A stretch of DNA of 64,000 nt from positions 124,001-188,000 of the forward strand of contig JAIXOL010000030.1 of assembly GCA_027486845.1 (NCBI GenBank), given 5' to 3'. Position numbers and translations under genes: made by a program. Positions 4,215-26,030 of the stretch are shown piece by piece. This DNA is from Cytophagaceae bacterium. GTDB lineage: Bacteria; Bacteroidota; Bacteroidia; Cytophagales; Spirosomataceae. Below the pieces are notes generated by a model. The model searched no databases. It saw nothing but the letters and a program-made list of their open reading frames with translations, and was not told the DNA's origin. Position 1 is the stretch's first letter. Each line of letters starts with the position of its first letter.

Positions 4215-6335
4215 TTATCTATAAAAACCCATTGCTACACCACCATCAACATTGATGGCATTGCCGGTTGATTTACTTAAAAGTCCGCCGACAAAGGCAA
4301 AACAAGCATTGGCTATATCAACAGGTAATATAATTTCGTTGAGCAATGTACGTTTGGCATAATATGCTGGTAATTCTTCAACAGTAATTCCATAGGCTTT
4401 TGCACGGCCTTCAGCCCAACCGCCTGCCCAGATATTTGAGTCAGAAATTACAGCGTCTGGATTTACAGTATTTACACGAATTTTGTCAGCTCCAACTTCG
4501 GCTGCCATAAGGCGAGTTAAGTGTGCTTGGGCTGCTTTTGCCGAGCCATAACCTGCATTATTAGGCCCCGCAACGACGGCATTTTTCGATACAATATTCA
4601 CAATATCACCCCCGAAACCTTGTTTTCTTATTACTTCGATACCCGCCTTCGAGACAATGAATTGTCCTTTCACCAAAATATCATATAATCTATCCCATTC
4701 TTCGAGACTATGTTCAGCAATTGATTTTGAGATACTGATTCCTGCATTATTTATCACAATATCAACACCGCCAAAGGCTAAGCAGGTAGCATCAAGTGCT
4801 TTTTCGGTGCTTTCGGCATCGGTTACGTTAAGCAAAGTAGCCGCAACAGCATCTCGTCCAAAAGTTTTGATAAACTCAGCTTTCGCACTTTCCAAACGCT
4901 CCTCATTAATATCATTGATGATTACACAAGCACCTTCTTCAGCAAATTTCTTGGCAATTGCTTTACCAATTCCGCCGGCCGAACCTGTAATCAATGCAAT
5001 ACGTCCTGAAAGTGCTTTTGGTTTTGGCATACGCTGTAATTTTGCTTCTTCCAATAACCAATATTCGATATTAAATGCCTCTTGACGTGGCAAAGATGTG
5101 TATTCCGAAACGGCTTCTGCACCTTTCATTACATTTACAGCATTGATATAATATTCTGATGCCAAACGAGCCGTTGTTTTATCTTTTGAGAAAGTAAACA
5201 TTCCAACACCTGGGTATAAAATTACGACAGGATTTGGGTCACGCATGGCAGGCGAATTTGGATGTTTACAAGTATTATAATACTCGGTGTACATCGCACG
5301 ATAAGCTTCAAATGCAGGTGTAAGCGTAGTTTTAATTACCGAAACATCAGTTAAATCTTGATTTGGAGCTAATTCAAGAACCAAAGGTGATATTTTTGTA
5401 CGTAAAAAATGGTCAGGACAAGAAGTTCCAAGTGGAGCAAGTCTATCCAAATCATTTGAATTAATGAATTCTAAAACTCTTGCATCGTCGGTAAAATGCC
5501 CAATCATTTTTCGTTCGGATGAACAAAAACCTCTTAAAATTGGAGCAATTTTAGCGGCTTGCAACTGTCGTGCATCAGTCGGCAGGCTTTCTATTTTCTG
5601 TCCACCAAAAACATTTTTATAATTACTTTCTAAATATTCCGCACATTTTTCGATTACTTCGAGCGTATTAATATAACTTTCGAAGGCAGTGTCTCCCCAA
5701 GTAAAAAGCCCGTGTGAACCTAGCATGATTCCACGCAATTTTATACCACGAGAAGCAGCTTCTTCCAAACAAGTTTGTAGCTGTAAACCTAAATCAAAAC
5801 CTGGACGTTGCCAACCAACCCAACCAACTTCACCATTGAATAACTCTTCGGTAATTTTCTTTCCATCTTTGGCAGCTGCAATCGCAATAGCTGCATCTGG
5901 GTGAAGATGGTCGATATGTTTGAAAGGTAAAAACCCGTGCAGAGGCGTATCGATTGAAGGGGCTTTTGAAGCTAAATCAAAAATACAATGATTAAAAAGT
6001 TCTACCATTTCATCTTCAAACTCGATTCCACGATATACCTTGGTAAGGTTTAGAAGCCTTTCCATGTAAAGTGCCGCACAGCCCGATTTTGTGAGCGTAC
6101 CAATATCGCCTCCAGAGCCTTTAATCCACATTACTTCAGCATCAGCACCTGTTAGTGGGTCTTTATCTATAATTTTTACTGAGGTATTTCCTCCTCCGTA
6201 ATTAGTTAATCTCAAATCAGCACCGAGAATATTTGAACGATATATAAACAAGGCTACTTCATCACCCGCCAATTCAGCAGCCTTTTCCTCATCCCACAAG
6301 TAGCTAACATGGTTGAAAGTTTTCGTATTTTTCAT
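4215..6335 (-). CDS. Bifunctional class II aldolase / short-chain dehydrogenase (RhaD/YuxG type)
   Basis: This 706-residue protein has an N-terminal class II aldolase domain (about 1-430) with a probable zinc site HIDHLHP near residues 141-147 and a GSHGLF segment. A C-terminal SDR domain follows, with the NAD(P)-binding TGSAGGIG loop near 446 and a YGSAK catalytic motif. The architecture and length match the bifunctional rhamnulose-1-phosphate aldolase/alcohol dehydrogenase family, in which a ketose 1-phosphate is split to dihydroxyacetone phosphate and lactaldehyde and the aldehyde is then oxidised. It is the last gene of the 22-kb locus and lies 45 bp after the binding-protein gene. No rhamnose isomerase or kinase is present here, so the true substrate may be another deoxy or branched ketose phosphate. 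The family call is secure; the substrate is not. Confidence 0.9.
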   Translation of the reverse strand: MKNTKTFNHVSYLWDEEKAAELAGDEVALFIYRSNILGADLRLTNYGGGNTSVKIIDKDPLTGADAEVMWIKGSGGDIGTLTKSGCAALYMERLLNLTKVYRGIEFEDEMVELFNHCIFDLASKAPSIDTPLHGFLPFKHIDHLHPDAAIAIAAAKDGKKITEELFNGEVGWVGWQRPGFDLGLQLQTCLEEAASRGIKLRGIMLGSHGLFTWGDTAFESYINTLEVIEKCAEYLESNYKNVFGGQKIESLPTDARQLQAAKIAPILRGFCSSERKMIGHFTDDARVLEFINSNDLDRLAPLGTSCPDHFLRTKISPLVLELAPNQDLTDVSVIKTTLTPAFEAYRAMYTEYYNTCKHPNSPAMRDPNPVVILYPGVGMFTFSKDKTTARLASEYYINAVNVMKGAEAVSEYTSLPRQEAFNIEYWLLEEAKLQRMPKPKALSGRIALITGSAGGIGKAIAKKFAEEGACVIINDINEERLESAKAEFIKTFGRDAVAATLLNVTDAESTEKALDATCLAFGGVDIVINNAGISISKSIAEHSLEEWDRLYDILVKGQFIVSKAGIEVIRKQGFGGDIVNIVSKNAVVAGPNNAGYGSAKAAQAHLTRLMAAEVGADKIRVNTVNPDAVISDSNIWAGGWAEGRAKAYGITVEELPAYYAKRTLLNEIILPVDIANACFAFVGGLLSKSTGNAINVDGGVAMGFYR

Positions 6336-6380
6336 TTCTTTTATCTATTTATAGCTTAAAATCTCTTTTTCTACTTAACA

Positions 6381-7313
6381 TTATTTCAAAAACTCTCCAA
6401 TATTCTCCTTCGTTACCAACTGAAAAGGTATCATTAATTCTTTTTCGTAAGGTTGCCCTTTGGCAATTTTTACAGCAGTTTCAATTGCTCCTTCACCTTG
6501 TTTCTTAGCATTCTGAAAAACAGTAGCATCAAGTGTGCCTTTCTTTACCGCCTGTAAAGCGTCAGCTATAGCATCAATGCTTACGACAATAACTTTATCT
6601 TTTAGACCAGCATCCTGTAGGGCTTTTAAAGCTCCTAAACCCATTTCGTCATTTTGAGCAAAAACTGCATTTATTTTTGTTCCGTAAGATTGAATCCAAT
6701 TTTGCATCAAATCCATACTTTTGGCTCTATCCCACTCGCCAGTTTGGTGAGAAATAAGTTTTAGATTAGGATATTCTTTTAAAATCTCTTTTGCACCTTG
6801 TTCTCGTTGAATCTGAGCAGCCTGCCCCATCAAACCATGAATCATTACAATATTTCCTTTTCCACCCAATTTTTCAGCAATAAATTTCATCGCTATTCTA
6901 CCAGATTCTACATCATTTGAACCTACAAACGCCGTTGGTTGAGTACTTGTAGCGGAATTTACATTGATAATCGGTATTTTGGCCGCCAAAGCCTTTGTAA
7001 TTGCCGGCGAACTTGCCTCAACTTCACAAGGATTCATGATGATAACATCTACTTTTTGAGCAATAAAGCTTTCAACTTGTTCGATTTGCTTCAACGGTTG
7101 ATGTTCTGCATCTACACTTATCAATTCAACTCCCAACTCTTCGGCTTTTTTGCTCATTTCATCGCTAATATTGACGATAAACTCATTTTGCATGCTGAGC
7201 ATTGTTACACCAACTTTAATTTTTTTATCGCTTCCATTTTCAGATTTATTTGACTTACTGCAACTAAAAAAAAAGAAAATCGAGATGAATAGTATTGAAT
7301 AAAGGTGTTTCAT
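6381..7313 (-). CDS. Sugar ABC transporter substrate-binding lipoprotein (RbsB type)
   Basis: This 310-residue periplasmic-binding protein begins with a very short hydrophobic signal and a lipobox cysteine (FFFFSC, Cys18), so it is probably a lipoprotein. The body shows the two-lobed RbsB fold of the Peripla_BP_4 type: KVGVTMLSMQNEFIV, a FVGSNDVESGRIA segment and VFAQNDEMGLGAL. It should capture a monosaccharide in the periplasm and pass it to the adjacent permease and ATPase. The gene sits between the permease gene and the aldolase gene on the same strand. Ligands of this class include ribose, allose, rhamnose and inositol; the sequence alone does not choose among them. Confidence 0.9.
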   Translation of the reverse strand: MKHLYSILFISIFFFFSCSKSNKSENGSDKKIKVGVTMLSMQNEFIVNISDEMSKKAEELGVELISVDAEHQPLKQIEQVESFIAQKVDVIIMNPCEVEASSPAITKALAAKIPIINVNSATSTQPTAFVGSNDVESGRIAMKFIAEKLGGKGNIVMIHGLMGQAAQIQREQGAKEILKEYPNLKLISHQTGEWDRAKSMDLMQNWIQSYGTKINAVFAQNDEMGLGALKALQDAGLKDKVIVVSIDAIADALQAVKKGTLDATVFQNAKKQGEGAIETAVKIAKGQPYEKELMIPFQLVTKENIGEFLK

Positions 7314-7344
7314 TTTTTAAATTTTGGTAAAATCAATTGTCACC

Positions 7345-7422
7345 AGCTAAAGCAGGTGAAAATTGAAACATGTACAACTTTTAATAGCTAAAGCAGTCGT
7401 TAATTGAAATATGCACAACCAT
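7345..7422. repeat. Two degenerate tandem copies of a 41-bp unit
   Basis: AGCTAAAGCAG occurs at 7345-7355 and again at 7386-7396. Each copy is followed by an ATTGAAA-ATG-ACAAC block, giving a period of 41 bp. The repeat lies in the permease/binding-protein spacer. It could affect mRNA stability between the two genes, but that is a guess. Confidence 0.6.
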
Positions 7423-7455
7423 TCAAAATTGGAGACAATTCAAAAACAAAAAGAA

Positions 7456-8394
7456 TTAACCATTACTTTTCTGATTCCAACCATCTAGAACTACTGCTCC
7501 AATAATTATTATTCCCATCACAACTTGCTGATAATAAGACGTTACATTGAGTAAATCGAGTCCATTATTAATAACTCCAATGAACAAAACACCAACTAAA
7601 GTTCCTGTCATTGTGCCAGTTCCACCCGATGTGCTAGTTCCGCCAATAACTGCCGCCGCAATGGCATCTAATTCAAAACCAGTTCCTGCGTTTGGTTGAC
7701 CAGTTGTGATTCTTGATGTCAATAAAATTCCTGCTAAACCTGCCAATAAACCCGAAATCGAATAAACTGCCATTTTAACTTGATTCACATTAATCCCAGA
7801 TGCTCTTGCTGCCTGTTCGTTGCCACCAACGGCATAAATATACCTTCCAAGCAATGTTTTTTTTAGTGTAATTGAACAAATAGCAAAGATTAAAATTAAT
7901 ACAATAATTGGAAAAGGAATACCTAAAACATCACCCCCACCAATAAAGTTAAACGAATCAGAAAGGTTTGAAACTGGGCGACCTTTACTTAAAATCAGAG
8001 CTAAACCTCGCCCGATTGTCATTGTTCCAAGCGTAACTATAAAGGGTGCAATTTTGCTTTTAGTGATAATAAAACCATTGAAAACACCCATCAAAAGCCC
8101 AGAAAATAAGCCTGCAAAAATCGGCAAGGCCACAGGAAATGTATCAGGATGAGCCAACATAGCGGCAGTTACGCCAGTTACAGCAACCATCGAACCCAAT
8201 GAAAGGTCTATTCCACCAGTAATTATCACAAAAGTCACACCAAAAGCCAATAAAGCGTTGATAGAAGCTTGAGTAATAATAATTGTCCAATTTGAAACTG
8301 TCAAGAATTGAGATGAAATAAAGGAAAGAATGAGGCAAATAATAATAAATACCACAAAAATTCCGTATTGCCTAAGACGATTGATTAAAAACAT
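7456..8394 (-). CDS. Sugar ABC transporter permease (RbsC type)
   Basis: This 312-residue integral membrane protein has about eight to ten hydrophobic segments and the RbsC/BPD_transp_2 signatures GGIDLSLGSMVAV near residues 61-73 and GGTSTSGGTGTMTGTLVG near the C-terminus. It would form the inner-membrane channel of the importer together with the ATPase gene upstream and the binding protein downstream. The length is normal for the family. Its spacers to the neighbouring genes are about 100-140 bp and contain repeats, which is loose for an ABC operon, but gene order and strand support one transcription unit. Confidence 0.92.
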   Translation of the reverse strand: MFLINRLRQYGIFVVFIIICLILSFISSQFLTVSNWTIIITQASINALLAFGVTFVIITGGIDLSLGSMVAVTGVTAAMLAHPDTFPVALPIFAGLFSGLLMGVFNGFIITKSKIAPFIVTLGTMTIGRGLALILSKGRPVSNLSDSFNFIGGGDVLGIPFPIIVLILIFAICSITLKKTLLGRYIYAVGGNEQAARASGINVNQVKMAVYSISGLLAGLAGILLTSRITTGQPNAGTGFELDAIAAAVIGGTSTSGGTGTMTGTLVGVLFIGVINNGLDLLNVTSYYQQVVMGIIIIGAVVLDGWNQKSNG

Positions 8395-8500: not shown

Positions 8501-9991
8501 TCACTCCACTGCATATTGCATAATTTTTTCTTGTGTTGCTTCTTGTTTTGTGAATAAAGCGGTTTGCTTTCCTTTTGAAAGAACCAAAACCCTATCACTT
8601 ATTCCCAAAATTTCGGGTAATTCTGACGAAATCATAATGACTGCTATTCCTCTATCAGTCAACTGATTAATCAATTTATAAATTTCAAATTTTGCTCCAA
8701 TGTCAATGCCACGCGTGGGTTCATCCAAAATAACAAGACTTGGCGAGGTCAGTAAAACTTTACCAATTATTACTTTTTGTTGATTTCCACCACTCAAATT
8801 CATCACTTTTTGATTAATATTCGTTGACTTTATTTTCAAATCAATTGACAATTGAGCTGTTGCTTCTTTCTCATTCGTTGAATTGATAAACCAAGCTTTT
8901 GAATAATTTGCTAAACTCGACAAACTAATATTTTCATTGATTGACATCGCAGGCATAAAACCCAATGCCTTTCTATCTTCACTTACATAGCCAATACCTT
9001 TTTCAATTGCTTCTTTTGGTGATTTTAAATTAATTTTATTGCCTTTTAGTGTAATTTCTCCACTATCGTATTTGTCTAATCCATAAATTGCTCTTACAAT
9101 TTCTGTTCTACCTGCTCCCATCAAGCCTGCTATGCCAAGCACTTCTCCTGCATAAACTTCAAAATTAATATTCTCGAATTTGCCTTTTTTCGAAAAGTTT
9201 TTGATGGTTAAAATTGGTTTTTTTTTACATTTGAAAGTTACTTTTTCAGGAAAAATATTTTCAATTTCACGGCCCACCATTAAAGCAATTAAAGAGTTTT
9301 TGTCTAAATCGTTGGTATTTTTTGTATCAATATAATTTCCATCTCTGAAAATCGTAATTCTGTCGGTAATCTCAAATATTTCGTCCATTTTGTGCGAAAT
9401 ATAGATGATTGACACGCCCTTGGCTTTCAAATCATTGATAATTTTGAAAAGTATCTCCACCTCTGTATCTGAAAGTGCAGATGTTGGCTCATCCATGATG
9501 ATTACTTTTGCATTTGTTGAAATCGCTTTGGCAATTTCAACCATTTGCATTTGAGCAATACTCAAATTCTTAATTTTGGTTTGAGCATTGATTTTCACAC
9601 CTATCAAATCGAGCAATTCTTGAGCTTTCTGATTGATGGCCGTATCATTTAGCCAATATCGATAATTGGCTTCTCGACCTAAAAAAATATTTTGGGCAAC
9701 GGTTAATTCGGGAACGACAAGGATTTCTTGATGAATCATAGAAATGCCTTTCAGTAAATTTTCGTGAACGCTTTTGCTTTTTAATATTTTTCCTTCAAAA
9801 ACAATTTCGCCCGAATCAGCCGTAAATAAACCCATTAAAATCTTCATAAATGTCGATTTTCCAGCTCCATTTTCACCCATTAATGCATGAACTTCGCCTT
9901 TTTGGAGATCAAATTGAATGTTATCCAACGCCTTTACCCCTAAAAATGATTTAGAGAGATTTTTTACTTGGAGGATTAGATTTCTATTCAT
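8501..9991 (-). CDS. Sugar ABC transporter ATP-binding protein (RbsA type, two ABC domains)
   Basis: This 496-residue protein has two fused nucleotide-binding domains, as in RbsA, MglA and XylG. The first has Walker A GENGAGKST near residue 39 and Walker B IIMDEPTSAL. The second has the degenerate Walker A GLMGAGRTE that is usual in this subfamily, plus the signature LSGGNQQK and LVILDEPTRGID. It energises import through the adjacent permease. ABC monosaccharide importers are less common in Bacteroidota than proton or sodium symporters, so finding one inside a SusCD locus is notable. The family call is secure; the substrate is unknown. Confidence 0.93.
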   Translation of the reverse strand: MNRNLILQVKNLSKSFLGVKALDNIQFDLQKGEVHALMGENGAGKSTFMKILMGLFTADSGEIVFEGKILKSKSVHENLLKGISMIHQEILVVPELTVAQNIFLGREANYRYWLNDTAINQKAQELLDLIGVKINAQTKIKNLSIAQMQMVEIAKAISTNAKVIIMDEPTSALSDTEVEILFKIINDLKAKGVSIIYISHKMDEIFEITDRITIFRDGNYIDTKNTNDLDKNSLIALMVGREIENIFPEKVTFKCKKKPILTIKNFSKKGKFENINFEVYAGEVLGIAGLMGAGRTEIVRAIYGLDKYDSGEITLKGNKINLKSPKEAIEKGIGYVSEDRKALGFMPAMSINENISLSSLANYSKAWFINSTNEKEATAQLSIDLKIKSTNINQKVMNLSGGNQQKVIIGKVLLTSPSLVILDEPTRGIDIGAKFEIYKLINQLTDRGIAVIMISSELPEILGISDRVLVLSKGKQTALFTKQEATQEKIMQYAVE

Positions 9992-10004
9992 TATTCTAAA
10001 TTTC

Positions 10005-10035
10005 CGTAAGAACGTCCAAATTGGACGTTCTTACG
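10005..10035. repeat. Perfect 15-bp-arm palindrome (REP-like)
   Basis: The arm CGTAAGAACGTCCAA (10005-10019) is followed by one central base and then its exact reverse complement (10021-10035). It lies between the oxidoreductase and ATPase genes and has no T-tail. It is more like an intergenic REP element or mRNA-stabilising hairpin than a terminator. Confidence 0.8.
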
Positions 10036-10042
10036 AGTTTTT

Positions 10043-11221
10043 TCAAACAAAATCACCATCCACATTTGTATCTTTCCAGCTTCTCGAATTGGCCGAATCA
10101 ATAACTGCCGCACAAACTTTTTGAGTTTGAAGTGCTTCTTTGAATGTTGGAGAACAATCTTCACCAGTTTCCAAACTTTTCAAGAAATCGGCTACTTGAT
10201 GAACAAAACTATGCTCATAACCAATACCGCAACCTGGAATCCACCATTTATTCATGTAAGGTTGGTCGCCATCAGTCACATGAATTGACCTCCATCCTCG
10301 AACAATAGAATCATCACGATGGTCGAAATATTCAAGACGATTTAGGTCATGTAAATCCCAACGGATAGAAGCATCAGCACCGTTAATTTCAAAAGTATAG
10401 AGAGCCTTGTGTCCACGAGCATAACGAGTAGATTCAAAAAGTCCGAGTGAACCATTGGCAAAATGACAATGAAAAATACAGGCATCATCAATTCCAACAG
10501 GTTGAACTTTTCCCGTTAGCTGATGCATACGCTCTTTAATGAAAGTTTCGGTAACGGCAGAAACATCAGTAATTGCTCCGTTTAGCCACATAGCTGTATC
10601 AATGCAGTGAGCTAAAAGGTCGCCTGTTACGCCCGAACCTGCTGAATCTACGTCCATTCGCCATAAACCCTCACCCCCTTGTGGAAGGTCGGCACTAATA
10701 GTCCAATCTTGTAAAAAATTTGCTCGGTAATGATATATTTTACCCAATTTTCCAGAGTCAATAATTTGTTTTGCCAAAGTTACGGCGGGCATTCTACGGT
10801 AGTTATACCAAACCGTAGTTTTCAGTGGAACGCCGTCCGCTCCTGCTTTATCGATGGCATCTACCATTATTTGCCCTTCTTCCAAAGTACGAGCAAGCGG
10901 TTTTTCACACAAAATCATTTTTCCTGCCGCTGCCGCTGCCAAAGCAATTTCAGCGTGGGTATCGTTAGGTGTACAAATATCTATGGCATCAATATCATCA
11001 CGAGCAACGAGGGCTTTCCAATCGGTTTCGATAGATTCAAAACCCCATTGGTCAGCAAATGCTTGTACTTTTACGGCATTTCTTGAGCAAACGGCCTTTA
11101 AAACAGGCGTATATTCCAATTCAGGAAAAAAATTTGTAATACGATTATATCCATTAGAATGAGCTCTTCCCATGAGGCCCGTTCCTATTAATCCGATTCT
11201 GAGTTGTTTCTTCGTTGACAT
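10043..11221 (-). CDS. Gfo/Idh/MocA family sugar oxidoreductase
   Basis: This 392-residue protein starts with a Rossmann NAD(P)-binding loop, [16 protein letters not shown] at residues 9-24. It has the family's conserved EKP segment (ILCEKPLAR) near residues 103-111 and the usual C-terminal beta-sheet domain with substrate-facing His/Asp residues. No signal peptide is visible, so it is cytoplasmic. Enzymes of this family oxidise or reduce sugars, inositols or 3-keto sugars. Its place just upstream of the ABC importer genes suggests that it acts on the imported sugar or its lactone/keto form. The direction of the reaction and the substrate are not known. Confidence 0.9.
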
Positions 11222-11313: not shown

Positions 11314-12345
11314 TTACGCTTCATACCACCCGTGTTGTTTTCTGACATTTATCATGGCTGCCAAAATATCATTCCAAGTTTTTGGCTGAGTCATTACTGC
11401 GTTGTCAAACATACAGCCATCCCAACAAATATGTCGGAAAGCTTTGGTTAATTCGCCCGAATTATTGCGAAGCCAGAGGCCTGCATCGTGAGCTATATCA
11501 AGTTTTCCATTTGGGTCGGTAGCTTGACAATGACGTCCAGTTTTATCGTGTGAACCTGTGCCATGTACAGTTCCATCGTTTTGAGCAACGTGAAAGTCAA
11601 TTGTCCAAGGACGCAAAGCATCAGTGAGTTTTTTTAATCCTGCAAGGAAAGTTTCTCTGTCTCCCCATTGAAAATCTTCGGGCAAAATACGAGCTTCGGG
11701 AGCATTATAACCAAGCAAATAGAGCGTAGTATGCGACATATCGGCCTGAAAACCAATATTTGGGCGGTCAACTGCCTCTAAAGTATCAATCATTGCTTTC
11801 CATGAGTGCATTCCACCCCAACAAATTTCTCCTTCAGCTGCGAGTCTTTCACCATAATCGGCAGCTACATCGCAAGCTTCTCTGAATGTCTGTGCAATCA
11901 ATTTGGTATTTCCTACTGGGTCAGCAGCCCAACTTTGTGGACTACTCGCAGAATCAATTCTAACGATTCCGTTTGGACGAATGCCCATTTCACGCAATTT
12001 TTGACCGATATGACAAGATTTACGAACCATTTCTACAAAACTCGCTCGTTCCTCTTTGCTACCCATTGCTGGCCCTCCCCATATAGGAGCAACCAAACTG
12101 CCAATTTCAAGACCGTGTTTTGTAACTTTATCAGCCAATCTTTTGATGGCGTCATCAGAAGTATCAAGGTCATAGTGTGGGTCGAAAAGCCCTAAGTCAA
12201 CACCATCAAATTTTACACCATCTACCTCAGCAGCAGCTGTCATTTCGAGCATGGTATCTAACGAAATTGGGGGCTCAGAGTCAGACCCTTTTCCTACAAT
12301 ACCCGGCCATGTGGCATTGTGGAGTTTAGGATAGTTATTTTCCAT
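11314..12345 (-). CDS. Sugar phosphate isomerase/epimerase-like TIM-barrel protein
   Basis: This 343-residue protein has the AP-endonuclease-2/xylose-isomerase-like TIM-barrel pattern. Candidate metal ligands are the Glu in AEGEICWGG, the Asp/His in FQADMSHTT, and the His in [10 protein letters not shown], and it ends with a conserved Trp/Asp region. It has no signal peptide. Enzymes of this superfamily isomerise, epimerise or dehydrate free sugars, keto-inositols or hydroxypyruvate. It is the longest of the three TIM-barrel genes in the locus and lies directly upstream of the oxidoreductase gene, suggesting consecutive steps. The exact reaction cannot be read from the sequence. Confidence 0.82.
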
Positions 12346-12388
12346 AGTTTAATAGAATTTTAGGTTGATATTTTAATGAGTAAATGAT

Positions 12389-12472
12389 TGAGTGAATGAT
12401 TGAATTTCGAACGAATGTTTAATAATTAATGCAACTTCTCACAAAATATTCATTCATTCCATCATTCACTCA
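12389..12472. repeat. Imperfect inverted repeat
   Basis: TGAGTGAATGATTGAA at 12389-12404 is matched by an inverted copy at 12457-12472 with 15 of 16 bases paired. It sits between the cupin and TIM-barrel genes. It resembles the spacer palindromes found elsewhere in the window. Confidence 0.6.
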
Positions 12473-12480
12473 GTCTATGA

Positions 12481-15794: not shown

Positions 15795-15803
15795 ACAATT
15801 CAA

Positions 15804-17682: not shown

Positions 17683-18459
17683 CTATTTCAATTCTTTAAT
17701 TCTTAAATTACGATACTGAACTTTCATTGGTGGGCCAACGTGTACTTGTACGCCCAAAATACCTTTCGATTTTCCATTAACTAAATCATTGTCGCTTACA
17801 TCGCTCATCAGAATATCATTGATGTAGTGCTGTAAACGGTTGCCTTTGATTACCAAGTGAAATGTATTCCAATCTTGCTTATTAATTTTGGTTTTTAATG
17901 CTTCATTTTCTCCTAAACTTCCTGTTACTTTTAGCTCTGTCCAAGCATTTTTTTGCACTTTCTTGCGAACTTCTTCGGGCGTCATTGGGCTTATTTGTGG
18001 ATTGATACTTGTAATCTGACCACGATAAGCCAAAGTAGTTCGACCACGTTCTTCATAATTTTGGCCGGTATAAGTATTATTTCCGTCAATATCAGCTTGA
18101 TAACCTCTTAATGCAAACTGAATATCGGGCAATTTTACGCTTCTGTAATTAATGCCTGAATTTCCTTTTTCGGTAATATTGAATTCACCTTTTAGCTCGA
18201 AATCTGCGGGTTCTCCACCTTTCCATGTAATAAATGAATTGGTTTTGAGTAAGGTTTCAGGGGTAATCTCACCCACTAAATTACCATTTTCTACTCTCCA
18301 ATATTTAGCATCACCTTCCCAATTGTTTAAGGTTTTTCCATCGAAAATTGACTTGAAACCCTTTTCATTTTGAGCAGTACTCGAAACTTTGCAACCAACT
18401 GCCAAGATAGCAATTAGAACAATAATATTCCAATATTTTAAATTAAATTTTGTTGTCAT
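17683..18459 (-). CDS. DUF1080 lipoprotein (3-keto-glycoside hydrolase/lyase-like)
   Basis: The preferred start is the ATG at 18459, giving 258 residues with a signal peptide and lipobox AVGC. An in-frame start at 18561 would add 34 residues ahead of the signal and is unlikely. The mature part has the DUF1080/LamG-like jelly-roll: SIFDGKTLNNWEGDAKYWRVENGNLVGE at the N-terminus, then GNSGINYRS, and a C-terminal GILGVQVHVGPPMKVQYRNLRIKEL. Characterised members act on 3-keto-disaccharides or 3-keto-glycosides in the periplasm. It sits beside a secreted sugar-dehydrogenase-like cytochrome, so a 3-keto intermediate is plausible. The family is certain; the chemistry is inferred. Confidence 0.88.
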   Translation of the reverse strand: MTTKFNLKYWNIIVLIAILAVGCKVSSTAQNEKGFKSIFDGKTLNNWEGDAKYWRVENGNLVGEITPETLLKTNSFITWKGGEPADFELKGEFNITEKGNSGINYRSVKLPDIQFALRGYQADIDGNNTYTGQNYEERGRTTLAYRGQITSINPQISPMTPEEVRKKVQKNAWTELKVTGSLGENEALKTKINKQDWNTFHLVIKGNRLQHYINDILMSDVSDNDLVNGKSKGILGVQVHVGPPMKVQYRNLRIKELK

Positions 18460-18586
18460 TGGTGTATGATTAAAAAGAGTATTCTGTTTTAAATTCTTTG
18501 TTTCCGAACATATAAGTTCAATTTTAAATATGCCTGCCCAAATTCGTTGATACTCCTTCAAGCAAGCATATAAAACTTAATCATAT

Positions 18587-21277
18587 TTACTTTTTAACTT
18601 CCGCTTTTGACTTAAACATGGCATTGTTTTCACTTCCTCCAGCCATCAAATAGGCCATTAAATCTTTTAGTTCATCTTCGTTCAAGCTATTTATCAAGCC
18701 ACCAAACATAATAGATGCAGCTGATGGTTTTGACGATATTACATTCTTTTTCAAAACTTTCTCAAGCTCATTTGGTGCATAAGGGTTTTGAGAAATGTAA
18801 TAAGCAGTTTTGTCTTCGTTTACTAAACGTCCTACGATTGAACTGCCATTTCTTAGGCTGTAATAAGTAGCTGCGTATTGGTCAGAAACCGTTTTGTTTG
18901 GTTCGATAATTGACTCCAACATATCCTTTGATGAGAAACGTGAATATAGTTGGCTTAAATCTGGTCCAATTGCTCCACCATCGCCTTTCATCGAATGGCA
19001 CATTTTACAGGTAGTTGCGGCATACATGGCTTTTCCATTGTCAAAATCTCGGTCAGTTAGTCCTTTTTCTATGATTGGTAAAGCATTTTCCATTCTCCAG
19101 TTTCTACCTGGACCTTTTGGTGCGGTTAACGAAATAAAATCATTTCCATTTTTACTTAATCTCTCTGCACCAGCTAGTTTCTCAAAGTAAGCTCTTTTAC
19201 TATCGGGAACATTTTTCAAGGCCAATTTTAATGATCTGTCCAAGAAACCTATATAACTGTTTCCCCCTTTGTATTCAAAGGCTTTGTAGTACCATTTAAA
19301 ATATTTGTCTTGAAGTTCAGGTGTCCAGCCTTCTTTCGCTAAACTCAACATAACAGCATAATAAGTATGCTGAGCTGGTGGTAAATTTGCTAACATTGCA
19401 GCAATATCTTTACCATATTGAGGGTTTCTCAAAATTAAATCACTTGAAGCAGTAGCGGTTTCAGTGTTTAGTGCATCGCTACCTGGCTCGGTTTTAACAT
19501 CCATTAAAGCCAAAGTTTTTGCAACTGCTTCTGGAGCGTCTAAATAAATCAACAATTTACTTAATGAGCGATTCAAATGTGCAGTATTGGCAGGATAAAG
19601 CGGGTTTAGATATGCTATCACTTTAGGTTTTTGTGTAGCATCTGGTTGACCCATGCGAAGGAATGTGAGTTCAAATGCTCTCAATAAATCTAATTGTTGA
19701 GATTGTTGTAAAGTTTTGAAATTTACAGCCAAAAGAGCATTTACAATATCGTTTTTCTTAGAGCCATCGCCCATACGAATCAATGAAATCAATGATTGGG
19801 TTAGAGCAACTGGATCTTTTTCTTTTAAAGCTAAATCTTGCCATTGAGCAATTGGTTGATGCTCCAATGCCATACGTGCCGCATAACGAATAAATCTATC
19901 TGGGCTTTTTAATTGTGGCCAAGCCGTAGCGACTGCAGCAGGATTTGCTCCACCAGTATGAAATTTCTCCAAACTTCTACGTAAAGCATTGGCTGGATTA
20001 ATTGGTGCTGCCGCTATCGGAGCAGTGCTTTCGTTACCAACATAAGAAACACGGTATAAATCACAATCTAAACGACGACCACCTGTGAGGAAGTACAAAG
20101 CACCATCTGGGCCAATTACACCATCTGTCAATGGAAGTGGAATGCCTGATAAAAACTCCTCTCTTTCGCCAGAAAAAGTTGAACCAGAAGGTTTTAGGTG
20201 AATAGCGTGCATTACACCAAAAGTCCAGTCGAAAGCCAAGAGGGTATTTTTATATTTTGCTGGAAATTTAGCATCTTTTAAATGAAGTAAATTGGTAGGT
20301 GAACCTTGCCCAATATTAATTACAGGAGGAAGATTATCTGGAAAAGTTGGCGACCATTTGCTGTTTCCTGTTCTCCAACCAAATTCTGATGCACTTGTTG
20401 CATGACAAATACGAGTCGGACGATACCAAGGTAAACCAAAATCCCATTCCATATCGGCATCATAAACAAACAAATCTCCATTCGCATCGAAGGCCATATC
20501 GAAAGCATTTCTGTAACCGGCACTTACCAATTCCCACTTTTTGCCTTCGGGGTCAAGATTCGCAATCCATCCTCCTGGAGCCATACGGTCGTTGGCGTGG
20601 CCACGAGGGTCTTTAATAAGCGGAAACATTTGGTCTTCTTTCCAATTTGATGGCAATTTATAAGCATCTAATGGTGGCACATCAGTGTGATTTCCATTAA
20701 TTACAAAAAGTGATTGTTTATCAGGCGAAAGAATAATACTATGTGGGCCGTGTTCTCCATCACCAACCAACTCTTTCAATAAAGTAACTTTATCGAATTG
20801 GTCATCATTGTTAGTATCTTGAAGACGATACAAACCACTTTTTTTCGTAAAAATCTTATTACCCTTACTATTGTTTATCATTACGTAAAGGCTATTAAAC
20901 GCATAAAGCAATCCATGTGCATAGCCCATACCCATTGTGTCAGTAGCAGGTCCAACTTTTAATTTTTCTACATCTGAAGCTGAGATTTTACCATCAACTG
21001 CAGGCATTTTTAGGCGAAAAAGTTTTCCATATTGGTCTGAGCAAATCATTCGGCCTTTATCGTCGAAAGTCATTGAAACCCATGAACCTATTTTGTTTTC
21101 AGAAGGGCTAAAAAGGTGTTCGGCTTTAAACCCTGCAGGATATTTTAGTTTGTCCAGTTTAGGGTCACCCGTAGTTATTGCAGACAGGTTAGGCTCTTTT
21201 AGGAGAGTAAATGAAGCAGCCGTGGCAATAGCGACTATTCCAATCCCCATTTTAATGGAGTTTTTTTTAGAAAACAT
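18587..21277 (-). CDS. PQQ-dehydrogenase-like beta-propeller protein with HEAT-like region and C-terminal cytochrome c (PVC type)
   Basis: This 896-residue protein begins with a hydrophobic export signal (residues 10-25). Residues about 40-430 form a glucose/sorbosone-dehydrogenase-like beta-propeller with motifs such as GDGEHGPHSI and SAGYRNAFDMAFDANGDLFVYD. Residues about 440-700 are helical and HEAT-like. The C-terminal 150 residues are a cytochrome c domain with heme site CKMCH at Cys757, Cys760 and His761. It should oxidise a sugar in the periplasm and pass electrons through its own heme. It lies between susD and the DUF1080 gene, which suggests that it acts on the sugar imported by SusCD. 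Whether PQQ is actually bound is uncertain. Confidence 0.85.
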   Translation of the reverse strand: MFSKKNSIKMGIGIVAIATAASFTLLKEPNLSAITTGDPKLDKLKYPAGFKAEHLFSPSENKIGSWVSMTFDDKGRMICSDQYGKLFRLKMPAVDGKISASDVEKLKVGPATDTMGMGYAHGLLYAFNSLYVMINNSKGNKIFTKKSGLYRLQDTNNDDQFDKVTLLKELVGDGEHGPHSIILSPDKQSLFVINGNHTDVPPLDAYKLPSNWKEDQMFPLIKDPRGHANDRMAPGGWIANLDPEGKKWELVSAGYRNAFDMAFDANGDLFVYDADMEWDFGLPWYRPTRICHATSASEFGWRTGNSKWSPTFPDNLPPVINIGQGSPTNLLHLKDAKFPAKYKNTLLAFDWTFGVMHAIHLKPSGSTFSGEREEFLSGIPLPLTDGVIGPDGALYFLTGGRRLDCDLYRVSYVGNESTAPIAAAPINPANALRRSLEKFHTGGANPAAVATAWPQLKSPDRFIRYAARMALEHQPIAQWQDLALKEKDPVALTQSLISLIRMGDGSKKNDIVNALLAVNFKTLQQSQQLDLLRAFELTFLRMGQPDATQKPKVIAYLNPLYPANTAHLNRSLSKLLIYLDAPEAVAKTLALMDVKTEPGSDALNTETATASSDLILRNPQYGKDIAAMLANLPPAQHTYYAVMLSLAKEGWTPELQDKYFKWYYKAFEYKGGNSYIGFLDRSLKLALKNVPDSKRAYFEKLAGAERLSKNGNDFISLTAPKGPGRNWRMENALPIIEKGLTDRDFDNGKAMYAATTCKMCHSMKGDGGAIGPDLSQLYSRFSSKDMLESIIEPNKTVSDQYAATYYSLRNGSSIVGRLVNEDKTAYYISQNPYAPNELEKVLKKNVISSKPSAASIMFGGLINSLNEDELKDLMAYLMAGGSENNAMFKSKAEVKK

Positions 21278-21337
21278 GATAGAGTAAGGGTTAAATATTA
21301 TTTATTGTCGAATAGTGTAATTTCGTCTCTAAATAAT

Positions 21338-21380
21338 CGCTGTATATTGTCGAGTAGAAATTCAACGACAATATACAGCG
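21338..21380. other. Stable 15-bp hairpin between susD and the cytochrome gene
   Basis: CGCTGTATATTGTCG (21338-21352) pairs perfectly with 21366-21380 across a 13-nt loop. On the minus strand it follows the susD stop after about 25 AT-rich bases and has no strong U-tract after it. It may attenuate transcription or protect the susCD mRNA end, giving high susCD expression relative to downstream enzymes. Confidence 0.6.
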
Positions 21381-21403
21381 AAAAATGATATTAATAAAAA
21401 AAA

Positions 21404-22912
21404 TTAAAAATGCGGCGTTAAAGCTGCTTCATCAGCAGGAAGGCCGTATAGTAAACTAATATTAGTGAAGGCATTACTTCTCGGCAATGCACCTTCTGGA
21501 TAATAATGAGCTACGGGATTAGCTTTTACTTGATTTCCGTAAGCGGTGATAATTTCAATGGCTCTTCCAGTGCGTACCAATTCGAACCAGCGTTTGTTTT
21601 CAAAAGCTAACTCGCTTCTACGGTCTTGATAAATTTGTGTTCTTAAAGCTGCTTGTGCAGTTGCCGTTGCTGCAGGTAAGCCAGCACGTGAACGCACTAG
21701 ATTAAGAATTGGTAAAGCTTCTGACATTTTCCCTTGCTCAGTCAATGCTTCTGCCAAGAACAACAAAGTTTCAGCATAGCGATAAATTGGGAAATTATTA
21801 CCAGTGTTAGCATGTAAAGAGTGAGCCTTAGCAAACTTTTTATTGTAAGGGAATCTTTTATCTGCTCTTAAACTTCCACTAATTGTAACGTAGGCAATTG
21901 TTCCATCCAATCGTTTATCTCCTTTTTCAAAAGACGCAATCAAATTGGGTGTTGGAGCACCATTTCCTTCGCCTGTTAGTGGCTGTGGATTAGATGTACC
22001 AGAAATTGGTCTCAGTTCATCAGGACTCATTGGGCGTGGTAAATAATTATAGATGATTGCACCGTTTAGTCCTGCTGCTCCTTCTATAAACTGGACTTCA
22101 AAGATTGATTCAGCGTTATTTTTATTTCCGGTATTAGTCGAAAAAGCATCATTAAAGTCTGGCATCAGTTTGTATTCATTACTGGCAACAATTTCTTTTA
22201 ATAATTTTTCAGCCTCTGCCCATTTTTTCTGCACCATATACACATTCGCGAGTAGCATTCTTGCAGTTCCCGAGGTTACTCTACCTGCTTCTTGAGTTGA
22301 TTTTGGTAATAATCCCGTTATTGCGGCAGAAGCATCTTTGATGATTTGTGCATATATTTCGTCAACAGTTGCCAAAGGCAATGCTGCTTCTTGACGGTTG
22401 GTTACTGGAGTAAGGTGCAAAGGAACTTTCCCGAAATATTGCACTAATTCAAAATAAGCATAAGCTCTCAAGAATTGTGCTTGACCTTTCAAGTTATTTT
22501 TTGAAGCCGCCGGAAACTCAACTGCATCAATTGAAGCCAAAATCTGATTGGCACGTGCAATGATTTGATAATCAAGACGATACTGATTCAATACGTGAGT
22601 GTTAGAAGTCACGCCATTGGCAGTTGGCACTGCAAAATCTGCTAAGTCTTCTTGCTGCTCAGTTGCTCCAAAAAGGATATTTCTATAATAATATGCATTA
22701 TCAGAGTGCATTTCACTCAAAAGCCATGCACGGTCGTTGACGATTGCTCGTAATGGTACATAGTTGGCATTTACTGCTTGTTGAAAATCAGCTTCTTTTG
22801 TAAAAAATATGGCGGTACTTAGGTTAGTTTCTGGAACAACCGTTAAAAAGTCTTTATCACAACTCATTAAGCCCAGAAACACAAATATTGCTGTTGTTAT
22901 TATCTTTTTCAT
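21404..22912 (-). CDS. SusD/RagB-family nutrient-binding outer membrane lipoprotein
   Basis: This 502-residue lipoprotein has a signal peptide ending in LMSC (Cys18) and the SusD-like tetratricopeptide fold: N-terminal FLTVVPETNLSTAIFFTKEADF, a central FLRAYAYFELVQYFGKVPL helix and a C-terminal YQDRRSELAFENKRWFELVRTGRA segment. It would sit on the cell surface as the lid of the SusC transporter encoded 22 bp upstream and capture an oligosaccharide or glycoside. The length is typical. It belongs to the RagB/SusD group found in Cytophagales. The ligand cannot be deduced. Confidence 0.95.
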   Translation of the reverse strand: MKKIITTAIFVFLGLMSCDKDFLTVVPETNLSTAIFFTKEADFQQAVNANYVPLRAIVNDRAWLLSEMHSDNAYYYRNILFGATEQQEDLADFAVPTANGVTSNTHVLNQYRLDYQIIARANQILASIDAVEFPAASKNNLKGQAQFLRAYAYFELVQYFGKVPLHLTPVTNRQEAALPLATVDEIYAQIIKDASAAITGLLPKSTQEAGRVTSGTARMLLANVYMVQKKWAEAEKLLKEIVASNEYKLMPDFNDAFSTNTGNKNNAESIFEVQFIEGAAGLNGAIIYNYLPRPMSPDELRPISGTSNPQPLTGEGNGAPTPNLIASFEKGDKRLDGTIAYVTISGSLRADKRFPYNKKFAKAHSLHANTGNNFPIYRYAETLLFLAEALTEQGKMSEALPILNLVRSRAGLPAATATAQAALRTQIYQDRRSELAFENKRWFELVRTGRAIEIITAYGNQVKANPVAHYYPEGALPRSNAFTNISLLYGLPADEAALTPHF

Positions 22913-22934
22913 TATCTTAAAATAATTTCGTTAA

Positions 22935-25900
22935 TTAAAAATTTAAGTTTAAACCAACAGTGTAGGTTCTTGGAACTGGATAGTTTGATAAGTCAACTCC
23001 TTGGCTCAAGTTTCCGCCATCGCCATTTCCAGCACCGTTTGCACTTGTTTCAGGATTTGGACCTCCCCAATATTTTGTAAATACATATAATTGTTGAACA
23101 GAAGCATAAATACGAGCCGATTTAAATATTTTATTGCTCTTAGGAATTGTATAACCAAGTGTTACGTTTTTGATGGTGAAAAATGACGCATCAGCAATAA
23201 AACGACTATTCATCCAGTCTCTTTCAATACCTGTCACATTGCCACCACCAACTGTTGTTCCGTACATTCCTTTGCCAGGATTTGCTTCTGAGCGAAAACG
23301 GTCTTTTACTTCAGCCACCATATTAAATACACCATCAAGATTGGCAGTACTATAAATATGACGAACCAATAACTGATTTCCTTGCGAACCAGAACCCACG
23401 ATACTAGCATCGAAATTGCCATAAGTAAAGTTATTGGTGATACCGTAAGTAAATGTCGGGAAAGGATTTCCCATGATTACTCTATCATCAAAGTCACCAC
23501 CATTTGTAATAATTCCGTCACCGTTTTGGTCGGTCAATTTGATACTACCAATCGTCGAACGGCCTGGTACTTGTGGTGAACTTTTTAAATCTTCGGCATT
23601 TTTGTAAACTCCCTGCGAAATATGTCCATAGAATTGTCCAAAAGGTTTTCCAACTTGGGTAATGTGGAAAGATCCATAAACACGGTCAATACCATCGGCT
23701 AATGCAATTACTTTATTACGGTTAAATGAGATATTAGCGTTTGTACTCCATTTCAACTTACCCGTTGTATTTTTGGTATTTAACGCAAATTCATGTCCCC
23801 AAAACTTAATTTCTCCGATATTATCGTTAAAGTTGCCAAAGCCAGCTTCTTGTGCAATTTGCACACTATATAATAAGTTTGTAGTACGTTTTGTGTAATA
23901 ATCATATACCAAAGTAATGCGGTCATTGAAGAAACCTAAATCTAAACCTAAATCAATTTGTTTGGTAGTTTCCCAACCTAAATTGCTGTTTGCTAAAGTC
24001 GTAACAACTGCACCAGGAGCAACATTATTACCGAATGCGGCATTTACAGTATTGTTTACCAAGGCATAAGGTGTATAATTACCGATATTATTATTACCAA
24101 TTACTCCATAACTACCTCTCAATTTTGCAAAAGAAACCTTAGGCATTGATTTCATAAAATCTTCATCCGATAAAACCCAACCCGCTGAAAACGACGGGAA
24201 AGTACCCCAACGATTGTTTGAACCAAAACGAGAAGAGCCATCACGACGAACCGCTGCAGTAAACAGATATTTGCCTTTGAAATTATAAGTTAATCTTGAT
24301 AAAAGAGAAGTCAAAGCCCACTCTTGAACACCTGTGTTTGTACCAGCACGATTGACGTTAATTGCACCCTGTACAGTTGGAAGACGGTCATCGGCATAAG
24401 TATCTGCCTGAATTCTTGTACTTTCCTGCATGAATTTTTGTTGAGAAAAACCTCCCAAAATTTCAAAATTATGGTCGTCGATACTTTTTGAATAAGTAGC
24501 TAAATTTTCGTTCAACCAAGTAAGGTTTTCAACATTCTGACGAATAGAAACGGCAGTGGTTGGAATAGCCACATTGATTGCACTCGTTGCAGTTGATGGG
24601 TTGAAGAAGAAAAACTTAGAACGCAACATTTCTACATTGAAAGTAGATTTTAAAACTAAATCTTTGATTGGGCGATATTGAATAAAAGCATTTGTTAATA
24701 AGTTGGTTGTCGTAGTTTCGTTTACCAATTCATTGGCTGCTCTCACCCAGTTTGGATACGCAAAAATATTTCCCGTACTGGCAGGAAACCTATTAAATAA
24801 AGTCAAAGTTTGACCATCAGCTTCATAAATCGGCATTACTGGCCATGTGTGCAAGGCATTAAATAAAATCCCCGTTCCTCTGTCACCATCCGTACGTGGC
24901 GTGTTATCAAATACGTATTGCGGTGCAACATTAAATCCAACCGTAACTTTATCCGAAATATCATATTCGGAATTCATTCTTAATGAATATCTTTTATATT
25001 CATTATTAATTACAACCCCTTGTTGGTTGAACACTCCACCGACAAAGGATGTACGTGAGCGATCTTTGTTAGACGTAACTGTTAGGTTATAACTTTGTAG
25101 AGGGGCTTTTCTTAGTAATGATTTATACCAATCATTATTTTTTCCTGCATATTGTGAAGGATTTTGAAACTCGGCAGGTACCGGTTGCTTGGCATCTTCA
25201 TAATATTCTTTCTTAAATTGAGCAAATTCTTCAGCCGTAAGCATTTGAATTAATCCTCTATCTGGCACTTCTTGAGTACCTACAAATGTATTAAAACTAA
25301 CATTTGTACCATTTGCTTTGCCTTTTTTAGTTGTAATCAAAACTACACCATTGGCCGCACGAGAACCATATAATGAAGTAGAAGAAGCATCTTTCAAGAT
25401 TGAAATATCTTCAATCTCGTCGGGGTTCATTGCTCCGATATCACCCGTAATAGGAAATCCATCGATTACATACAAAGGGTCGCTACCTGCCGAAACCGAT
25501 AATTGCCCACGAATTCTGACACTCATCCCCTGTCCAGGCTTTCCCGTTGTCTGATTGATTTGTACACCAGCTAACTGACCTTGTAGTTTTTGAGCAACTT
25601 GTGATACAGGAATGTCTTTAATTTCTTTTGAGCCAATTGTCTGAACAGCTCCCGTCACATTTTTCTTTAATTGACTACCGTAACCAACTACAACTATTTC
25701 ACTTAATAGTTTGTCGTCAAGAACTAAAGAAACATTGATTTCTTTTTGACCTGTGTAAGCAACTTCGTTGGCTGTATAACCCACAAAGCTAAATACCAAG
25801 GTCGAATTATTTGGTACATCCAATTTGTAGCTACCATCGGCATCAGACTGTGTGCCTCGATTTACACCTTTGATAGTTACACTTACCCCCACTAAAGCTT

Positions 25901-26030
25901 CGCCATTTTGGCCAGTCACTTTGCCCTTAACTTGTTGGGCAAACGCAAATGAAGTACATAACAAACCCAACATCAGCGAGAAAACACTCGCATAGAGTTT
26001 TGTTTTGTACAAAGTAAATCTTTGTCTCAT
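22935..26030 (-). CDS. SusC/RagA-family TonB-linked outer membrane transporter
   Basis: This 1031-residue protein begins with a signal peptide ending in SFAFAQ, followed by a carboxypeptidase-regulatory-like domain (about 34-110, VKGKVTGQNGEALVGVSVTIKG), then a plug domain (SEIVVVGYGSQLKKNVTGAV; DPLYVIDGFPI; SSTSLYGSRAANGVVLITTKKG) and a long 22-strand barrel ending in an aromatic residue (GLNLNF). It imports the substrate across the outer membrane with TonB energy and pairs with the SusD protein encoded just downstream. It is the first gene of the long minus-strand locus. No anti-sigma/sigma pair is adjacent, and no STN domain is present, so ECF-type signalling is unlikely. Confidence 0.96.
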   Translation of the reverse strand: MRQRFTLYKTKLYASVFSLMLGLLCTSFAFAQQVKGKVTGQNGEALVGVSVTIKGVNRGTQSDADGSYKLDVPNNSTLVFSFVGYTANEVAYTGQKEINVSLVLDDKLLSEIVVVGYGSQLKKNVTGAVQTIGSKEIKDIPVSQVAQKLQGQLAGVQINQTTGKPGQGMSVRIRGQLSVSAGSDPLYVIDGFPITGDIGAMNPDEIEDISILKDASSTSLYGSRAANGVVLITTKKGKANGTNVSFNTFVGTQEVPDRGLIQMLTAEEFAQFKKEYYEDAKQPVPAEFQNPSQYAGKNNDWYKSLLRKAPLQSYNLTVTSNKDRSRTSFVGGVFNQQGVVINNEYKRYSLRMNSEYDISDKVTVGFNVAPQYVFDNTPRTDGDRGTGILFNALHTWPVMPIYEADGQTLTLFNRFPASTGNIFAYPNWVRAANELVNETTTTNLLTNAFIQYRPIKDLVLKSTFNVEMLRSKFFFFNPSTATSAINVAIPTTAVSIRQNVENLTWLNENLATYSKSIDDHNFEILGGFSQQKFMQESTRIQADTYADDRLPTVQGAINVNRAGTNTGVQEWALTSLLSRLTYNFKGKYLFTAAVRRDGSSRFGSNNRWGTFPSFSAGWVLSDEDFMKSMPKVSFAKLRGSYGVIGNNNIGNYTPYALVNNTVNAAFGNNVAPGAVVTTLANSNLGWETTKQIDLGLDLGFFNDRITLVYDYYTKRTTNLLYSVQIAQEAGFGNFNDNIGEIKFWGHEFALNTKNTTGKLKWSTNANISFNRNKVIALADGIDRVYGSFHITQVGKPFGQFYGHISQGVYKNAEDLKSSPQVPGRSTIGSIKLTDQNGDGIITNGGDFDDRVIMGNPFPTFTYGITNNFTYGNFDASIVGSGSQGNQLLVRHIYSTANLDGVFNMVAEVKDRFRSEANPGKGMYGTTVGGGNVTGIERDWMNSRFIADASFFTIKNVTLGYTIPKSNKIFKSARIYASVQQLYVFTKYWGGPNPETSANGAGNGDGGNLSQGVDLSNYPVPRTYTVGLNLNF

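Follow-up and report, generated by a model that had tools for sequence, protein, structure and literature searches.

A conserved Bacteroidota sugar locus with a probable ManA-like cupin and an apparently recruited RhaEW-type aldolase–dehydrogenase

Several described pathways resemble parts of a 15-gene locus of a Cytophagaceae bacterium, which occupies positions 4215-26030 of the window, that is, of the whole 64,000 nt stretch analysed here (contig JAIXOL010000030.1, positions 124,001 to 188,000). Bacteria that use levoglucosan combine an LgdA-type oxidoreductase of the Gfo/Idh/MocA family (Gfo) with TIM barrels for elimination and hydration (PMC7676230, PMC10066097). DUF1080 proteins hydrolyse 3-keto-glycosides, and in the lactose cluster of Caulobacter a transporter, two epimerases and a reductase stand beside the DUF1080 protein (PMC9007349). 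The bifunctional RhaEW of the L-rhamnose pathway has been shown to be active in vitro for two homologues, and its orthologues are described as lying always within rha loci (PMC3870299).

The explanation that best accounts for the locus, to which we would give about an even chance, is a catabolic operon working by 3-keto-glycoside logic, to which a RhaEW of the rhamnose pathway was added late. The locus is apparently a conserved, widely shared and uncharacterised Bacteroidota set for sugar uptake and breakdown, of a known general kind. What is new is a 400-residue cupin (Cupin400), a 343-residue TIM barrel (TIM343) and the linkage to rhamnose genes; both proteins are among the most conserved of the set and are without an assigned family function. 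A reading made earlier from the sequence alone (the sequence-only reading) did not recognise the full set as a described pathway, and our searches of an open-licence library likewise found no description of it.

A conserved core around the cupin gene

Conservation was assessed in a family sample of 222 genomes, in a phylum sample of 395 genomes drawn evenly, and by a cupin scan of a genome collection, which may omit records near the window's genome. The scan confirmed at least 588 stretches, of which the best 80 were kept as named loci. Cupin400 is present in 166 of the 222 family genomes and in 32 of the 395 phylum genomes (10 at 73% identity or more, the window's genome included; 9 at 36-51%; 13 as weak matches of partial length). 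The best 80 loci all bear Bacteroidota names, including Spirosoma, Dyadobacter, Runella, Aquirufa, Cyclobacterium, Zobellia, Maribacter, Chitinophaga and others. Because the cupin is found in so many family genomes and collection stretches, some of them from Aquirufa with its genomes of 2-3 Mb, the substrate is probably a common one, and naming it would fill a gap in what is understood of small-glycoside use by Bacteroidota.

Partners were counted in 59 of the best 80 loci, those of 18 kb or more (the 21 shorter ones were left out), at 40% identity or more and within flanks of up to 10 kb a side. The cupin is accompanied by Gfo and TIM343 in 58 loci each, by the aldose-1-epimerase-like DUF4432 protein in 57 and by DUF1080 in 56. 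Less constant are the heme protein (41), SusC (28), RbsA (28), SusD (27), RbsB (26) and RbsC (23), and each member of an optional module made up of the TIM barrels TIM283 and TIM275 and a hydrolase occurs in 23. The core is Gfo, TIM343, Cupin400, DUF4432 and DUF1080; SusC/SusD, the cytochrome and the RbsABC importer are frequent and not constant. When gene order was compared in related genomes, as the sequence-only reading had proposed, TIM343 and DUF4432 each adjoined the cupin directly in 55 of the 59 loci, and the core block recurred in all 22 family loci examined and was also seen across families f1, f2, f7, f8 and f24. Owing to this recurrence and adjacency the arrangement is beyond chance, and the conserved gene set bears out the view that the genes form one sugar locus. 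Residues of catalytic type, whose roles we presume, are conserved in the aligned locus proteins. Proteins resembling ThuA account for 14 cluster-by-locus cases among the best 80 loci (cluster c15 in 10, c35 in 4).

All 15 open reading frames named at first are present, in a row and co-directional on the minus strand, and the families assigned to them agree with Pfam and NCBIfam scans, for the cupin through a profile and a structure model only. From the 5′ end they are as follows, with a repeat beyond the last gene.

22935-26030, minus strand: SusC/RagA-type TonB-dependent outer-membrane transporter (TIGR04056, 811.5 bits, cut-off 368)
21404-22912, minus strand: SusD-type outer-membrane lipoprotein (PF07980, 98.6 bits; PF14322, 95.2 bits)
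18587-21277, minus strand: PVC-type beta-propeller/heme protein with C757xxC760H761 (TIGR02603, 86.8 bits, over the cut-off; TIGR02604, 74.5, below the cut-off of 122)
17683-18561, minus strand: DUF1080 protein of the 3-keto-disaccharide hydrolase family, lipobox AVGC (PF06439, 114.8 bits, cut-off 26.8)
16791-17642, minus strand: TIM283, D-tagatose/D-psicose 3-epimerase-like TIM barrel, optional module (PF01261, 147.7 bits)
15804-16631, minus strand: TIM275, weakly IolE-like TIM barrel, optional module (PF01261, 82.7 bits; TIGR04379, 62.6 of 290)
14985-15803, minus strand: alpha/beta hydrolase, PcaD/lactonase-like, optional (PF00561, 114 bits; TIGR02427, 119, below the cut-off of 256)
13910-14947, minus strand: DUF4432 aldose-1-epimerase-like protein, core (PF14486, 333.7 bits; 3ty1, E 2.6e-22)
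12481-13683, minus strand: Cupin400, candidate aldose-ketose isomerase of the ManA superfamily, core (profile and model likeness to ManA)
11314-12345, minus strand: TIM343, PF01261 TIM barrel of an uncharacterised branch, core (PF01261, 53.3 bits)
10043-11221, minus strand: Gfo/Idh/MocA NAD-dependent sugar oxidoreductase, core (NF052479, 315.9 bits, cut-off 650)
8501-9991, minus strand: RbsA-like ATPase of a sugar ATP-binding cassette (ABC) importer (PF00005 in two stretches; NF008030, 552 bits, below the cut-off of 745)
7456-8394, minus strand: RbsC-like permease (PF02653, 161.8 bits)
6381-7313, minus strand: RbsB-like substrate-binding lipoprotein, lipobox FFSC (PF13407, 230 bits)
4215-6335, minus strand: AldSDR, RhaEW-type fusion of L-rhamnulose-1-phosphate aldolase and L-lactaldehyde dehydrogenase, probably recruited (NF006191, NF006189, TIGR02632)
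4174-4205, minus strand: terminator-like inverted repeat GCCGAGT...ACTCGGC followed by T6, just after AldSDR (read from the sequence)

The DUF1080 score confirms that enzymes of the 3-keto-glycoside type are present. The CxxCH motif of the heme protein is kept in 54 aligned rows, and we infer that this protein is a candidate periplasmic dehydrogenase or electron carrier. TIM283 matches the D-tagatose 3-epimerase 7dz2 (E 2.3e-37) and scores 139.6 bits with NF051856, under the cut-off of 300; for TIM343, neither a single-sequence nor a profile search found a relative in the PDB. The hydrolase usually accompanies TIM275. Its TTG start is doubtful, as is that of the DUF1080 gene, which encodes 292 aa here against 245-300 aa in 58 of 62 relatives (median 260).

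Thirteen of the 14 intergenic gaps measure 0-159 bp and one, between DUF4432 and the cupin, 226 bp; the plus strand within the locus carries, at 120 aa or more, only two short antisense reading frames (142 and 129 aa). Co-transcription of the 15 genes is plausible from this layout. Upstream of susC, the nearest gene on the minus strand is 1287 bp away. The Bacteroidetes-type promoter pattern has one strict match in the region, downstream of AldSDR, in a search made without a shuffle control. The repeat that follows AldSDR has a 12-base loop, which falls outside our rule-based stem-loop scan, so it is not listed there. Long stem-loops lie between genes at window positions 21278-21403, 9992-10042, 7314-7455 and 12346-12480, and the Gfo/RbsA gap holds a 14-pair inverted repeat at 10005-10035. 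Beyond the locus, the minus strand at 1-3669 encodes a very large bacterial protein of the alpha-2-macroglobulin family, cut by the window edge, and 27318-28619 encodes an alpha/beta hydrolase whose Pfam score (PF12740, 61.6 bits) is PETase-like.

Some relatives of the cupin stand in other surroundings. A cupin of 50% identity occurs at L085 (genome G420), where, on a short contig, it is flanked by a TIM barrel and an RbsB-like gene; this may be an intermediate form of the locus. Homologues in other clusters are 34-38% identical overall; six of them (L087, L088, L089, L090, L092 and L093, 34-36%) share a different cluster in other Bacteroidota families, which at L090 includes a xylulokinase (TIGR01312, 608 bits), two GH10 enzymes and one GH2 enzyme. 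In Cyclobacterium and its kin (L117, L122, L123, L162, L171) a conserved run of clusters c27-c31, not all five being present everywhere, comes after the cupin operon; we take this run to resemble an ebo-type operon.

AldSDR and the scattered rhamnose pathway

AldSDR exceeds the curated cut-offs of three models: NF006191 (1379 bits against 1240), NF006189 (967 against 634) and TIGR02632 (927 against 568). The last two are labelled for rhamnulose-1-phosphate, and NF006191 is an unspecific model for an aldolase joined to a short-chain dehydrogenase/reductase (SDR). Residues H143, H145, H208, Y596 and K600 are invariant in 25 aligned rows; we take the three histidines to be the metal site of the aldolase, and Y596 and K600 to be the YxxxK of the SDR. 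As predicted from its sequence, AldSDR is a RhaEW-type aldolase-SDR of the ordinary L-rhamnose pathway. Its context is a matter distinct from its identity, and there AldSDR stands outside any rha locus, with isomerase and kinase unlinked. That the locus might prove to be an already characterised pathway such as rhamnose use had been foreseen; this applies to AldSDR, which groups with copies from rhamnose clusters, and not to the core.

Rhamnose clusters were characterised in 20 loci chosen around AldSDR copies of the family, three of which (L188, L189, L206) are cupin operons of the window's genus. The neighbours in these loci include the isomerase RhaI (c1) in 13, an FGGY kinase in 10, and three Lut-like genes in 8, 7 and 6. 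The isomerase scores 484 bits with TIGR02629 (RhaI), below the curated 647, and the kinase has a weak rhamnulokinase score (66.7 of 528). In the window's genome there are six FGGY_N matches, among them an isolated gene on contig C74 for a 464-aa FGGY kinase, 43-51% identical to ten rhamnose-cluster kinases, which reached no NCBIfam model at 1e-10. RhaI (58% identical to the query) lies on contig C43 and is followed by three Lut-like genes, 70, 67 and 45% identical to those of rhamnose clusters and carrying CCG, LUD and LutB_C domains, and a second AldSDR (67%), with a GntR regulator after it, is on contig C68. Judged by gene content, this genome thus appears to have a complete but scattered rhamnose pathway. 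The same genome is rich in machinery of the keto-glycoside type, with 17 DUF1080 and seven PF13618 matches.

These findings alter two earlier claims. The locus had been called self-contained, whereas the FGGY kinase, RhaI with its LutABC-like genes and the second AldSDR all lie unlinked in the same genome. It was also observed, correctly, that none of the 15 genes encodes a kinase, and the sugar was concluded to be new or the pathway non-phosphorylating. Cleavage of a free ketose by AldSDR would fit the lack of a kinase among the 15 genes, but the search for an unlinked sugar kinase that had been suggested yielded the C74 gene, a likely candidate for the missing enzyme that may phosphorylate rhamnulose. 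With that kinase and RhaI elsewhere in the genome, and with AldSDR grouping with rhamnose-cluster copies, we set the non-phosphorylating pathway aside as extremely improbable.

The history of AldSDR was traced in a tree of 25 copies. The window's copy falls with the other operon copies of g1 and then with one from a rhamnose cluster of genus g17 (support 92/97). The copies of G047 and G403 (L079) form a separate pair (84/100, not firm by bootstrap), that of G200, about 21 kb from a cupin, is sister to the rhamnose-cluster copy of its own genome (100/100), and L083 (G392) is very distant and of unsure placement. From these groupings AldSDR most likely joined the cupin locus more than once. At L083:4978-8007, a 251-aa reading frame adjoining AldSDR matches FGGY kinase in two separate stretches and, by this pattern, would be a shortened or decayed kinase.

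Repeated joining bears on whether the locus has anything to do with rhamnose. AldSDR might be a hitch-hiker inserted downstream of rbsB, the core feeding ordinary hexose metabolism, and its rarity at the locus agrees with this: it is not a constant part, occurring in one of the 59 named loci and lying inside the cupin operon in three (G000, G108 and G047) of the 22 family loci, which include the window (on the AldSDR side G155 has no flank, and those of G043, G174 and G108 are short). Further cupin operons with AldSDR occur in the window's genus (G100, G102, G107). A RhaEW is in any case nearly universal in the family (211 of 222 genomes). That AldSDR copies of separate lineages stand at the locus (g1, G047 with G403, the copy of G200, and L083) speaks against a hitch-hiker, and so does proximity outside the family. 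All six out-of-family genomes of the phylum sample whose cupin is at least 73% identical carry AldSDR. In three of them it lies within 25 kb of the cupin (G392, 1.7 kb; G403, 6.2 kb; G297, 13.3 kb), in one the distance is 119 kb, and two have it on other contigs; under random placement, three of six has P of about 3e-5. Within the family the two genes lie less than 25 kb apart on one contig in at least G000, G100, G102, G108, G047, G188, G200, G212 and G215, a lower bound read by eye from related genomes that are not independent. On balance we find the hitch-hiker account somewhat unlikely. That rhamnose genes joined the locus repeatedly suggests instead that its natural substrate carries L-rhamnose or another 6-deoxyhexose.

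Cupin400 as a candidate isomerase

The Cupin400 protein of the window matches no Pfam or NCBIfam family. No Pfam phosphomannose isomerase (PMI) domain is found in it, and among 24 aligned relatives only L094 has one, below the gathering scores. A profile of 18 relatives with L094 excluded places mannose-6-phosphate isomerases first (E 0.0014), and every one of its 11 top entries is a ManA, though most are variants of a single enzyme; a first profile had held the ManA-like L094, and leaving it out, with fewer rows, changed the best E-value from 3.5e-9 to 0.0014. A first structure model, built from 5 sequences, was useless (pLDDT 40.6), and a second was moderate (pLDDT 62.9, pTM 0.70). The top Foldseek match of the second model is the phosphomannose isomerase 5zvx (E 1.5e-5, TM-score 0.32); similar E-values were obtained for single cupin domains that have other functions. 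H127, H129, E145 and H213 are invariant in the 18 rows and align with the L094 motif; we take their counterparts in ManA to bind metal. By profile and model, Cupin400 is most likely a metal-dependent isomerase of the ManA superfamily.

One genome outside the family, G403, bears on its possible role. There AldSDR and a 456-aa kinase, which is weakly rhamnulokinase-like (TIGR02627, 67 of 528 bits), run divergently from an operon of GntR, heme protein, DUF1080, DUF4432, cupin, TIM343, hydrolase, TIM275 and Gfo. No RhaI was found in G403 at E≤1e-20, against seven of the eight tested genomes in which it is present, nor was RhaA, for which one of the eight gave a match, a weak one lying on its RhaI. 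G403 is listed as 100% complete and has 30 contigs. Because its cupin block adjoins kinase and aldolase while RhaI and RhaA were not found, Cupin400 may be a new sugar isomerase; in G403, alone among the genomes, it looks like a candidate isomerase for that kinase and aldolase, on a thin basis of one genome.

This can be extended into a phosphorylating pathway in which the core delivers a ketose with Cupin400 as the aldose-ketose isomerase, a RhaB-like kinase acts on it, and AldSDR yields dihydroxyacetone phosphate and lactaldehyde, without RhaA or RhaI. The similarity of Cupin400 to ManA agrees with such a pathway, as do the G403 arrangement and G047, which has AldSDR and a kinase inside the cupin operon. 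We nevertheless rate it fairly unlikely: RhaI is kept in the other seven genomes tested and in G000, G047 has its copy elsewhere in the genome, the absence comes from one genome of 30 contigs and from similarity thresholds, and most named loci have no adjacent aldolase. More tentative still, and in our judgement distinctly unlikely, is the full proposal that Cupin400 founds a new isomerase family of the ManA superfamily and, with TIM343 and Gfo, converts a (deoxy)sugar released from a glycoside into a ketose, which the RhaB-like kinase and RhaEW then split without RhaA or RhaI. Were it true, there would be a rhamnose- or deoxyhexose-type route, most compact in G403 and disassembled across Bacteroidota. 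A general replacement of RhaI by Cupin400 in the family was rejected, RhaI being present in 211 of 222 genomes, and the idea is kept for G403 only.

Proposed function and comparison with known systems

From the computed gene families, their conservation, the AldSDR tree and the unlinked kinase and isomerase, we infer reactions, substrate and co-transcription as follows. SusC and SusD would import a small glycoside through the outer membrane. In the periplasm the cytochrome may oxidise it and the DUF1080 lipoprotein cleave the resulting keto-glycoside, and the freed sugar would enter the cell via RbsABC or another importer. Inside the cell, four proteins (Gfo, TIM343, DUF4432 and the cupin resembling ManA) could then convert it to a common sugar by reduction, epimerisation or elimination, mutarotation and isomerisation, in an order and on a substrate that are presumptive. 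RhaEW at the 3′ end would be the late addition, completing rhamnose use with the unlinked kinase (C74) and RhaI (C43).

Several observations weigh against this explanation. Pfam scans of the 15 genes revealed no glycoside hydrolase or other hydrolase or lyase of the CAZy type (CAZy itself was not searched), and the locus has no 3-dehydrogenase subunit of the PF13618 type, its seven copies lying elsewhere in the genome. Several gaps, such as that from SusD to the heme protein, hold stem-loops that could split the operon, and sigma-70 scans stayed at background, with 31 matches where 32.9 were expected and 41 where 45.2 were. With AldSDR within about 10 kb in one of the 59 long named loci, the link to rhamnose may be incidental; AldSDR and RhaI each occur in 211 of 222 family genomes, even where no cupin was found (G101, G103 and G104 among others), and in many other family genomes cupin and AldSDR lie far apart or on different contigs.

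The Gfo protein raises the further question of a pathway for levoglucosan (1,6-anhydroglucose) like that of LgdA/B1/B2/C. Its best NCBIfam model is NF052479, for levoglucosan dehydrogenase, and it matches structure 4h3v (E 1.4e-100) and also 6a3f (E 6.3e-76), which we take to be the structure of a levoglucosan enzyme. Its score of 315.9 bits stands against a cut-off of 650. TIM275 and TIM343 have sizes like those of LgdB1 (about 275 aa) and LgdB2 (about 325 aa) (PMC10066097), yet TIM275 occurs in 23 of 59 loci whereas LgdB1 stands beside 253 of 265 LgdA genes (PMC10066097). The 15 genes include no second, LgdC-like Gfo; this is not a strict feature, since LgdC lies near 151 of 265 LgdA genes and is absent near 114 (PMC10066097). 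With Gfo below the family (equivalog) score the levoglucosan pathway was rejected, and we consider it very improbable.

Compared directly with the lgdA-lgdB1-lgdB2-lgdC pathway (PMC7676230, PMC10066097), the locus shares an LgdA-like Gfo, PF01261 TIM barrels and a sugar ABC importer; it differs in having no LgdC-like partner and a Gfo of sub-equivalog score, and in the extra cupin, DUF4432, DUF1080, cytochrome and SusC/SusD. With the 3′-ketolactose and 3-ketotrehalose pathways (PMC9007349) it has in common that a periplasmic DUF1080 protein is clustered with a transporter, a reductase and sugar epimerases, whereas it lacks a dehydrogenase of the LacABC type or PF13618 and adds the ManA-like cupin and TIM343; the scores of its Gfo with NF058561 (28.7 of 750) and NF058563 (26.9 of 650) are far under the cut-offs. 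A SusCD polysaccharide utilisation locus would share the SusC/SusD pair (TIGR04056, PF07980), but a CAZy-type enzyme is not among the Pfam matches here. Homology of Cupin400 to Type I ManA is suggested by profile and model, and its His/His/Glu/His aligns with the Gln/His/Glu/His of the ManA-like protein; Cupin400 differs in the absence of a Pfam PMI score, in the change of the first-motif Gln to His and in its genomic setting. The L-rhamnose pathway with bifunctional RhaEW (PMC3870299) shares the AldSDR architecture, the curated scores, the aldolase histidines and the SDR Tyr/Lys, but the AldSDR of the window belongs to a non-rha operon, where it follows the genes of an RbsABC importer, and kinase and isomerase are unlinked.

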